Shown here piece by piece: positions 1 to 8,509 of a DNA stretch of 64,000 bases. The notes below the pieces were generated by a model. The model had not been told where the DNA came from and did no database searches. It saw nothing but the letters and a program-made list of their open reading frames with translations. The DNA is from a virus. Where the stretch lies: positions 1 through 64,000 of IMG/VR virus record IMGVR_UViG_3300017963_000273; one strand, given 5' to 3'. Positions within the stretch are counted from its first letter, which is position 1, and every line of letters begins with the position of its first letter. Both the position numbers and the translations under genes were made by a program.

Positions 1-46
1 CGCGATACCAGACTTCGCTAATGGCTGATGTAGAATTCAATCACCT

Positions 47-124: not shown

Positions 125-154
125 GTATTAAAAGGAAATTACAAACCCAAAATA

Positions 155-241
155 CGTCGCTCTACCCCTGAGCTACACCGGTGTTTTTATATTGGCACCG
201 GCGACGAGGATTCGAACCTCGCATCCTACGGCTTAACAGGC
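155..241 (-). tRNA. Candidate circularly permuted tRNA-Asn(GTT): 3' half upstream of 5' half
   Basis: On the minus strand the 3' half comes first (241 down to 193): half the anticodon stem, loop CTGTTAA (anticodon GTT), GCCGT, T-arm CGAGG-TTCGAAT-CCTCG, acceptor CGCCGGT, G, CCA. Ten bases later (182 down to 155) comes a 5' half: acceptor ACCGGTG, TA, D-arm GCTC-AGGGGTA-GAGC, G, ACG. Joined as 5' half plus 3' half they give a complete tRNA with acceptor ACCGGTG/CGCCGGT and anticodon stem ACGGC/GCCGT. The halves meet between positions 29 and 30 with no missing or duplicated base. One extra base lies between T-arm and acceptor. It could instead be two recombination remnants. An ordinary tRNA-Asn(GTT) lies about 1 kb away. 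Confidence 0.6.
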
Positions 242-276
242 AATATAGAAGGATGGATATTGTATAGCCTTTTAAA

Positions 277-2338: not shown

Positions 2339-2426
2339 TGGTGGACCAAAAGGGAGTTGAACCCTTGAAACGATTGCTCCATTTGTCGGTTTACAATCGT
2401 AACCTGCCCAGCAGGCCCATTATCCC
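2339..2426 (-). tRNA. tRNA-like gene with abnormal anticodon arm
   Basis: The T-arm AAGGG-TTCAACT-CCCTT, discriminator A and CCA are clear and an acceptor of 6 of 7 pairs (GGGATAA/TTGGTCC) can form. The anticodon region instead folds as a 7-bp stem ACGATTG/CAATCGT around a 17-base loop, so no anticodon can be assigned. It may be a degenerate tRNA or one carrying a short insertion (a loop starting TTGTAAA would give Tyr GTA). Confidence 0.45.
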
Positions 2427-2488
2427 GGCTTATTTTATTATTTGTCTTCGAGAGAAGAACGGGGTTCACTCGAATATCACGTGAATTC

Positions 2489-4313: not shown

Positions 4314-4321
4314 TATTTATA
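4314..4321 (-). promoter_or_regulatory. T4-type late promoter
   Basis: TATAAATA on the minus strand within a small palindrome (TGTTATTTATAACA), overlapping the stop of the NADAR gene and about 20 bases before the Zn-finger gene. Confidence 0.55.
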
Positions 4322-4793
4322 ACACAGCTTTAACGGAAGTAATCGCCTTTCCTAAGAGGTTCTGACCTGGCCATTTATCTGGATCAACTTGTTGTGCATT
4401 AGCTTCATCTAAACCAATTCCCCATACTGCATCGTATGGACTAGCTTCAACAAGAATTCTATCTTCTGTCGCCATTAATGCTTCTTTAGCATCTTCATTC
4501 TGAGTAAATTTAAGCATATTAGCAGTAAATACAATTTCGTATTTAACCGCGTCCCATACTTTATCATCAAAATTCTTTACTTGACGTCCAAGTTTCTTTT
4601 GATCACGTGGATTAAGAGTTGTTAAAACTTTCGCAGCAGTTTCTTCATCTTTAAAAACCATTGCTTTCTTATACATCATGTATTGTTCACAACAATTAAA
4701 ACGTATACCATGATCATCTACCATTGGAAATTTAGCCCATTGTGAAAATGGTCCATTCCAGAAAAACTCATAATTAGAGTAATTCGGATTCAT
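4317..4793 (-). CDS. NADAR/YbiA-family N-glycosidase
   Basis: 158 aa, the usual full length of the YbiA/NADAR fold. Conserved blocks are visible in order: FSQWAKFPMVDD (about 17), FNCCEQYMMYKKAMVF (about 33, with the catalytic-region Glu), PRDQKKLGRQVKNFD (about 62), LKFTQNED (about 94), EASPYDAVWGIGL (about 114) and WPGQNLLGKA near the end. The family cleaves N-glycosidic bonds of riboflavin intermediates, and members have been shown to remove ADP-ribose from guanine in DNA, countering DarT-type toxins. In a phage this suggests protection against ADP-ribosylation defence (inference). Confidence 0.88.
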   Translation of the reverse strand: MNPNYSNYEFFWNGPFSQWAKFPMVDDHGIRFNCCEQYMMYKKAMVFKDEETAAKVLTTLNPRDQKKLGRQVKNFDDKVWDAVKYEIVFTANMLKFTQNEDAKEALMATEDRILVEASPYDAVWGIGLDEANAQQVDPDKWPGQNLLGKAITSVKAVL

Positions 4794-6191: not shown

Positions 6192-6378
6192 TTCTATATT
6201 GTGTTTTTCGATGTAATTTCCAACTAAAATGATTTTTCCATCTACTAGCTTTACTATTACATCCTCTATTAGGTCTACATCTTGAACAAAAACCGTGAAT
6301 ATTACCAAGATAATTATATCTGATTTTTGTATAAACAGAACTATTAGTTGTTGTTTCTAATTCTTTCTTTAGTTTCAT
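6178..6378 (-). CDS. Small basic Cys-rich protein (66 aa)
   Basis: A strong ribosome site AAAGGAG stands 8 bases before the start MKLKKELETTTNSS. The core GFCSRCRPNRGCN followed by RWKNHFSWKLHRKTQYR resembles small phage and bacterial proteins with a CxxCxPxxGxN signature and a basic tail. Its stop overlaps the next gene's start by 14 bases. Function unknown. Confidence 0.6.
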   Translation of the reverse strand: MKLKKELETTTNSSVYTKIRYNYLGNIHGFCSRCRPNRGCNSKASRWKNHFSWKLHRKTQYRNGNS

Positions 6379-6747: not shown

Positions 6748-6823
6748 TGGAGCCCAAGATCGGATTTGAACCGACATCCTCTATCTTACCAAGATAGCGC
6801 TCAGCCAATTGAGCTACATGGGC
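6748..6823 (-). tRNA. tRNA-Thr(GGT)
   Basis: Acceptor GCCCATG/CTTGGGC with one T-T clash, anticodon stem CTATC/GATAG and loop TTGGTAA (GGT), T-arm GTCGG-TTCAAAT-CCGAT, CCA encoded. Confidence 0.88.
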
Positions 6824-6826
6824 ATT

Positions 6827-6915
6827 TGGTACACCTGGTAGGATTTGAACCTACGAATTCCTTTCGGCCCTCTCGGTGTAAACGAGACGCTCTAACCAGA
6901 CTGAGCTACAGGTGC
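6827..6915 (-). tRNA. tRNA-Val(TAC) with long variable arm
   Basis: Acceptor GCACCTG/CAGGTGT, anticodon stem TCTCG/CGAGA, loop TTTACAC (TAC), T-arm GTAGG-TTCAAAT-CCTAC, CCA encoded. The variable region is about 16 bases (GGGCCGAAAGGAATTC), a class II arm, where valine tRNAs normally have 5. Confidence 0.88.
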
Positions 6916-7397: not shown

Positions 7398-7474
7398 TGG
7401 CGAGCCTGAACGGATTCGAACCGTCAATCGCCCGGGAGACAGCCGGGTGCATTAGCCAATTATGCTACAAGCCC
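7398..7474 (-). tRNA. tRNA-Asp(GTC), copy 1
   Basis: Acceptor GGGCTTG/CAGGCTC, anticodon stem CCCGG/CCGGG, loop CTGTCTC (GTC), T-arm GACGG-TTCGAAT-CCGTT, discriminator G, CCA encoded. Confidence 0.9.
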
Positions 7475-7479
7475 ATATT

Positions 7480-7556
7480 TGGCGGAACTGACGGGACTCG
7501 AACCCGCGACCTCTGCAGTGACAGTGCAGCGTTCTTGCCAGCTGAACTACAGCTCC
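7480..7556 (-). tRNA. tRNA-Asp(GTC), copy 2
   Basis: Acceptor GGAGCTG/CAGTTCC, anticodon stem CTGCA/TGCAG, loop CTGTCAC (GTC), T-arm GCGGG-TTCGAGT-CCCGT, discriminator G, CCA encoded. Not a recent duplicate of copy 1. Confidence 0.9.
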
Positions 7557-8125: not shown

Positions 8126-8509
8126 TTACAAAAGTTTTAAGTCTTTTGTAATTTTATCAATCTTTTCAGATTGAGCAGGACCAATAGCTACACATGTTGC
8201 TGTTGGTACTCCATTAAATTCTGTTTTACCAGAATCTACAATTAAAGCAAATGGTAAATCTGCTTTATGAGCTTTAGTTCTAATATGATATAGTTCAGAT
8301 TCGCTATCAACTGAAACACATATTTTAGTAAAAGCACCTTCTTTCCATTCCCTCATTTCTTTTGAGAGCCAGATTAAATAAAGTCCTTTGAAAAAACTTT
8401 TCTTAAATCTGTCGAAGAAAACTTTTAAAGATGCATGTGCTACTTGAGCTGCAATCTTACCTTTTCTCATCTTTAGATCCTTACGGACCACAATAACCTG
8501 TTTTACCAT
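8126..8509 (-). CDS. pth2: Peptidyl-tRNA hydrolase, Pth2 type
   Basis: 127 aa, close to the about 115-120 aa core of the archaeal/eukaryotic Pth2 family. Diagnostic blocks: KQVIVVRKDLKMRKGKIAAQ at the start, VAHASLK with the catalytic-region His about residue 25, then PFALIVDSGKTEF and GVPTATCVAIGPA with the end sequence IDKITKDLKLL. The family frees tRNAs from stalled peptidyl-tRNA. Placement inside a tRNA cluster fits a role in keeping phage and host tRNAs recyclable late in infection. The Pth2 form is rare in bacteria, so a phage copy is informative. Confidence 0.9.
   Translation of the reverse strand: MVKQVIVVRKDLKMRKGKIAAQVAHASLKVFFDRFKKSFFKGLYLIWLSKEMREWKEGAFTKICVSVDSESELYHIRTKAHKADLPFALIVDSGKTEFNGVPTATCVAIGPAQSEKIDKITKDLKLL

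Follow-up and report, generated by a model that had tools for sequence, protein, structure and literature searches.

A permuted tRNA-Asn-like RNA in the tRNA cluster of a T4-superfamily phage as a candidate YrlA-type Y RNA

The window analysed here is a 64,000-nucleotide stretch, positions 1-64000 of a 67,986-base IMG/VR record (a contig of about 68 kb). The genes for the terminase large subunit, tail sheath, gp25, helicases and a UvsY-like protein identified the contig as a fragment of a T4-superfamily myovirus genome, the bulk of which is presumably missing from it. ARAGORN detected 30 tRNAs on the contig. Within this tRNA cluster, at the contig end and 155 bases from the contig start, lies a tRNA-Asn(GUU)-like sequence in which the 3' half precedes the 5' half. 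In the direction of the RNA, its parts are as follows.

242-276, minus strand: 5' leader, in which 275-268 (UUAAAAGG), 264-260 (UACAA), the bulged U259 and 258-254 (AUCCA) form one strand of a predicted terminal stem.
193-241, minus strand: 3' half of tRNA-Asn(GUU), 49 nt (GCCUGUUAAGCCGU...GCCA), tRNA positions 30-76, with an encoded CCA at 195-193 and a 6-bp T stem.
183-192, minus strand: spacer AUAUAAAAAC, 10 nt, which together with the CCA closes the acceptor stem as a loop.
155-182, minus strand: 5' half of tRNA-Asn, 28 nt, tRNA positions 1-29.
126-154, minus strand: 3' trailer, in which 149-145 (UGGGU), 144-140 (UUGUA) and 135-128 (CCUUUUAA) form the opposite strand of the predicted terminal stem.
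152-230, minus strand: sub-threshold match to the Rfam YrlA model RF02553 (23.8 bits against a cut-off of 69; model positions 23-88 of 114).

An initial annotation of the sequence had placed the 3' half with its CCA 10 bases ahead of the 5' half on the same strand, in agreement with the positions found here (241-193, 192-183 and 182-155). ARAGORN found no tRNA with the halves in genomic order, and a standard tRNA search misses the gene; the joined 77-mer was recognized as tRNA-Asn(gtt), with a minimum free energy of -30.3 kcal/mol. The complete cloverleaf proposed earlier was thereby recovered, with a 7-bp acceptor stem (one pair being G-U) and a 5-bp anticodon stem, and the halves do meet exactly between positions 29 and 30. 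This break splits the five Watson-Crick pairs of the anticodon stem 3+2, with three pairs crossing the junction. The Asn anticodon loop is perfect and the CCA is kept. Three features had been overlooked: the pairing of leader and trailer, the 6-bp T stem, which gives a 13-bp acceptor/T stack, and an intact tRNA-Asn(GUU) of unlike sequence at 1208-1283. The annotation had also held that two random truncations would not be expected to be complementary to the base. By an arithmetic estimate, a five-pair Watson-Crick stem split anywhere across two random flanks has a chance of about 0.6%, so the exactness of the junction alone is modest evidence. The permuted order does recur in other phages, twice on one further contig and again in Enterococcus phages (see below), which makes two chance truncations unlikely. 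Because of this recurrence an assembly artefact, which the position near the contig start might suggest, is likewise unlikely.

The locus could also consist of dead remnants of a tandem tRNA-Asn duplication, the first copy having lost its 5' half and the second its 3' half. Duplicates are common in the cluster: two tRNA-Phe copies (435-514 and 1036-1115) are 96% identical along 80 nt but differ in their flanks, and tRNAs for Asp, Glu and Tyr are also duplicated. Decay is represented by a degenerate tRNA-like sequence at about 2339-2440 (minus strand), which has an intact T arm and CCA, an unmatched acceptor and a weak tmRNA match; the 6-bp T stem could be decay as well, and 10 nt is a usual tRNA spacing within the cluster. 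Against remnants stand the exact complementarity at 29/30, the leader-trailer stem and the return of the permuted layout in other phages, twice with the same break, and we consider this explanation improbable. A probable 5' half of another tRNA, cut by the contig start, was noted at 1-32 (minus strand), and the minus strand of the tRNA region also encodes a NADAR-domain protein (4317-4793) and a PTH2 peptidyl-tRNA hydrolase (8126-8509).

The leader (276-242) and trailer (154-126), which are whole intergenic stretches, are complementary in the predicted fold over 18 bp with one bulged U (UUAAAAGG/CCUUUUAA, UACAA/UUGUA and AUCCA/UGGGU; -15.3 kcal/mol). This stability was matched by 16 of 5000 dinucleotide shuffles, and by one of 2000 in a second run. 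It was also reached by 2% of real segment pairs from the window and by two of the 30 flank pairs taken from ordinary tRNAs of the window, so the stem is supportive rather than decisive. Inspection of the predicted fold by eye revealed no apparent strict BHB motif at the junction.

A search pattern describing a tRNA-Asn with an interruption ahead of position 30, which selected for the interruption only and for neither permutation nor a neighbouring gene, led to a second contig of 146,532 bases (G007) with two tandem permuted tRNA-like genes. One is a tRNA-Asn broken at 29/30 with five of seven acceptor pairs formed, and the other is broken in the anticodon loop. Their leaders have CCAAUGCUUAUUUCUU in common and their trailers AGCUUGG. 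The leader motif occurs six times in G007 at up to two mismatches, on a single strand, with no reverse or control match. Six elements have the stem form GNNNN-U-RCU-UAUUUC, whose 8 bp covary perfectly and which contains a single bulged U; the second permuted gene, with GAACC in its leader, supplies a seventh. All seven lie on the same strand and have the bulged terminal stem; two of them enclose the permuted tRNAs and five enclose inserts of about 30 nt. For the leader-trailer duplexes of the permuted genes the advantage over shuffled sequences was slight (126 and 166 of 2000), and the support for the G007 terminal stems therefore comes from covariation. The bulged stem of the window RNA, UACAA-u-AUCCA/UGGGU-UUGUA, follows the same plan. 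The five short elements (L145:5494-5555 and L146:5903-6181) share the bulged covarying stem and UAUUUCUU around their inserts and are probably Y RNAs without a tRNA domain; the four in L146 gave no convincing Rfam match. A tRNA-Leu(UAA) interrupted by an apparent group I intron (L138:10721-11042) adjoins the permuted tRNAs of G007, and more interrupted tRNAs seem to follow it.

The G007 sequence matched Enterococcus schiekviruses in two pieces with their order kept. The Enterococcus RNA also has the order 3' half, loop, 5' half, with a break at 29/30 and a 7-bp acceptor stem. It aligned with the full RF02553 YrlA model (positions 1-114) at 47.8 bits, below the cut-off of 69, with an E value of 2e-8 (1.1e-9 in a second search). 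A DUF2828 gene starts downstream, about 0.26-0.6 kb from the RNA; its product is annotated as an RNA-binding protein in one phage, and mycobacteriophage relatives are annotated as "Ro-like RNA binding protein". Ro60/Rsr has Y RNAs as its partners in bacteria, among them YrlA, which contains a tRNA-like domain (PMC7790460, PMC4726728). YrlA is a known tRNA mimic in which the acceptor end is looped and the RNA ends pair in a Ro-binding terminal stem at the anticodon position. Since the Enterococcus homologue matches YrlA and adjoins a Ro-like gene, the layout described in the initial annotation is that of a known tRNA mimic. A Listeria phage study cites earlier reports of Y RNAs in phages and itself puts forward a phage homologue of Rsr that lies no more than 2 kb from abundant putative Y RNAs (PMC12282133).

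By tblastn, DUF2828 was found in 669 of 50,697 phage records, and the phage family has an invariant, MIDAS-like DxSGS motif. It was present in all ten complete records with a YrlA RNA or with the arm-bearing tRNAs described below, versus none of 14 cellular controls; the phages are partly related, and these ten records are therefore not independent. Gene and RNA are at most about 1 kb apart in BUCT-ZZ01, B23 and the two Enterococcus phages, but far from each other in a 735-kb phage. A search of the DUF2828 profile against PDB sequences gave no Ro60 match. Neither a TROVE nor a DUF2828 gene was found on the 68-kb window contig or on the 146 kb of G007, both of which are fragments.

The window RNA resembles YrlA in three respects: its tRNA-like body, which has D and T arms, is permuted, its acceptor stem is closed by a loop, and its 5' and 3' ends pair at the anticodon position (18 bp in the predicted fold of the single sequence). 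YrlA is also its best Rfam match, yet ordinary tandem tRNAs in the window gave comparable weak hits (25.2 bits at 7447-7513 and 20.0 bits at 6799-6856), so this match does not discriminate. The parallels in layout, in the place of the break and in the terminal stem make a YrlA-type phage Y RNA, a tRNA mimic rather than a working tRNA gene, the most likely identity of the window RNA in our view, which we hold with moderate confidence. In such a mimic the acceptor stem would stay closed by its loop, and the terminal stem formed by the real 5' and 3' ends would join the anticodon stem at the 29/30 break. The RNA would work as transcribed, with no need of splicing. A Ro60-like protein, which in phages is probably of the DUF2828 type, would bind its terminal stem, and the tRNA-like body would be left to engage another factor; candidates are nucleases, modification enzymes and anticodon nucleases that act on tRNA. 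We infer that the window RNA is of the same kind as its Enterococcus homologue, and with this its expression, its Ro-like partner and its function. The 13-bp acceptor/T stack is more in keeping with a mimic than with an elongator tRNA. The central claim of the initial annotation, a circularly permuted tRNA gene, thus holds for the order, which is real and recurrent, but the product is not necessarily a tRNA matured via a circular intermediate, given the YrlA match of the Enterococcus RNA.

Several observations count against a Y RNA. YrlA is unlike the window RNA in that its consensus has no anticodon hairpin, whereas the window RNA keeps the full hairpin with a perfect Asn anticodon loop and the CCA, which a mimic could dispense with. 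The RNA is located in a tRNA cluster, its YrlA score is far under the family cut-off, and no Ro-like gene was found on its partial contig, in contrast to the Enterococcus locus. The failure of the DUF2828 profile to match Ro60 in the PDB also counts against it, as does the failure of a profile of tRNA arms (below) to score the window terminal stem and the absence of a covariation-grade relative. Direct tests on the window RNA itself lend the YrlA type weak support. If it is a Y RNA, it is a form that still bears a complete tRNA-Asn with anticodon and CCA, and it would help to explain the tRNA mimicry of Y RNAs and their use by phages.

The intact anticodon loop and the CCA favour a rival reading, a true circularly permuted tRNA-Asn gene. 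In this case the leader and trailer would pair, the flanks would be cut at 29/30, a T4-type RNA ligase would circularize the RNA, and RNase P and 3' trimming would open the acceptor loop. The halves do join into a complete tRNA recognized by ARAGORN, although its T stem has 6 bp, and the exact junction and the location among 30 tRNAs agree with this route. The terminase places the phage in the T4 superfamily, and an Rnl1-type ligase and a PF09414 match were both present in all ten complete arm-tRNA phages tested. However, none of three types of RNA ligase (PF09511, PF09414 and RtcB) was found on the contig, itself a genome fragment, and the tRNA-splicing endonuclease family (PF01974) was absent from all 12 records searched, the window contig included. 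The contig already has an intact tRNA-Asn, the 13-bp stack is unfavourable, and the Enterococcus homologue of the same layout matches YrlA. We give this route a low probability. The 34 permuted tRNA genes known from algae, nucleomorphs and Thermofilum likewise have the 3' half first, a break in the anticodon arm and a short intervening sequence of 1-74 nt, compared with 10 nt in the window; theirs rely on BHB motifs and on the tRNA-splicing endonuclease, the latter being absent from the 12 phage records searched. The review that describes them lists no permuted tRNA from phages or bacteria (PMC3978253). Bacteria also have a two-piece tmRNA (Rfam RF04321) whose gene is likewise permuted, with the opening at the acceptor end, but it has an mRNA-like part that the window RNA does not. 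To our knowledge no permuted tRNA has been known from a virus before, and the window RNA, if spliced, would be the first.

A BLAST search with the flanked window sequence revealed a 114-nt 'tRNA-Pseudo' in Aeromonas phage Ahp1, which is a tRNA-Asn in ordinary order that carries a 40-nt insert precisely at the 29/30 boundary and has a 6-bp T stem like that of the window RNA. Further searches and a scanner that allowed an insert anywhere in 26-38 brought the number of phage tRNA genes that share a conserved insert of 38-68 nt to about 20, the insert lying mostly at 28/29 to 29/30 and in some cases in the anticodon loop, with several anticodons. The carriers are Aeromonas, Vibrio and Synechococcus phages (including Straboviridae and Kyanoviridae), the IMG/VR contig G004 and the 735-kb phage.

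Arm-bearing tRNA loci: L042:2436-2549; L043:1864-1976 and 1994-2107; L044:1997-2106; L046/L048:1986-2098; L053:1501-1618; L007:6824-6946; and further loci in L054, L055, L056 and L057.

In an alignment of fourteen of these tRNAs, 92.7% of the cells are paired, five of the six pairs of the insert hairpin show changes on both sides, and none of 500 shuffles reached any of five measures. The insert has an A-rich start, a hairpin with a G-N-N-A-type loop and then GCA(A). In public records these tRNAs are often unannotated or labelled tRNA-OTHER or tRNA-Pseudo, and published annotations call some tRNAs of such phages pseudo-forms; the open-licence papers searched gave no description of the inserts as introns or arms. 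Whichever reading of the window RNA holds, many arm-bearing phage tRNAs have been overlooked or mislabelled publicly. The inserts may be introns joined by a ligase, which would favour a spliced window RNA. All eight arm-tRNA phages tested for both DUF2828 and the Rnl1-type ligase have the ligase too, so an intron may be ligated. Because of the co-occurrence with DUF2828, however, protein-binding arms are at least as likely as introns removed by T4-type ligases.

These observations suggest a tentative model, one we would not yet bet on, of a single phage RNA system in two circular arrangements, namely arm-tRNAs in ordinary order and permuted tRNAs with their ends in the arm (window, G007 and Enterococcus YrlA). 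In either arrangement the arm would be recognized by the Ro-like DUF2828 protein. Bacterial Y RNAs would have arisen from tRNAs that first acquired an arm for Ro binding and later became permuted, and the window RNA, which still has its anticodon and CCA, would represent an intermediate stage. A profile of the arm inserts left the terminal stems of the window and G007 unscored and matched one of two Enterococcus versions weakly (2.0 bits), so the profile does not establish homology of arm and stem by sequence, and the unified model remains conjectural.

Comparison with related phages, which the initial annotation had proposed, gave a mixed outcome: the permuted layout recurs in G007 and the Enterococcus schiekviruses, but a close relative of the window RNA was not among the matches. 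DNA pattern searches of IMG/VR returned one protein-coding sequence and one ordinary Phe-Trp tRNA pair, with no relative close enough for covariation. Searches via the terminase, NADAR, capsid and a 228-aa protein gave distant or tiny contigs only, and an intron-core pattern in IMG/VR gave two known genomes and one false positive. Scans for permuted tRNAs with breaks allowed at 26-38, covering 1.59 Mb (both strands) and 3.19 Mb, revealed no further break at 27-31; in the 3.19 Mb, k=26 and k=33 each gave one hit that looks like ordinary tandem tRNAs. Other unusual tRNA sequences are also present. In a Chitinophagaceae MAG (L153, minus strand near 6364) an insert of 128 nt interrupts a tRNA-Asn at 29/30, and at a contig end in L155 (near 3332) a tRNA-Asn 3' half may follow a 14-nt insert. 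An Aeromonas phage tRNA-like gene (L046:1851-1968) has two T arms, as if it carried a second insert in the variable region.
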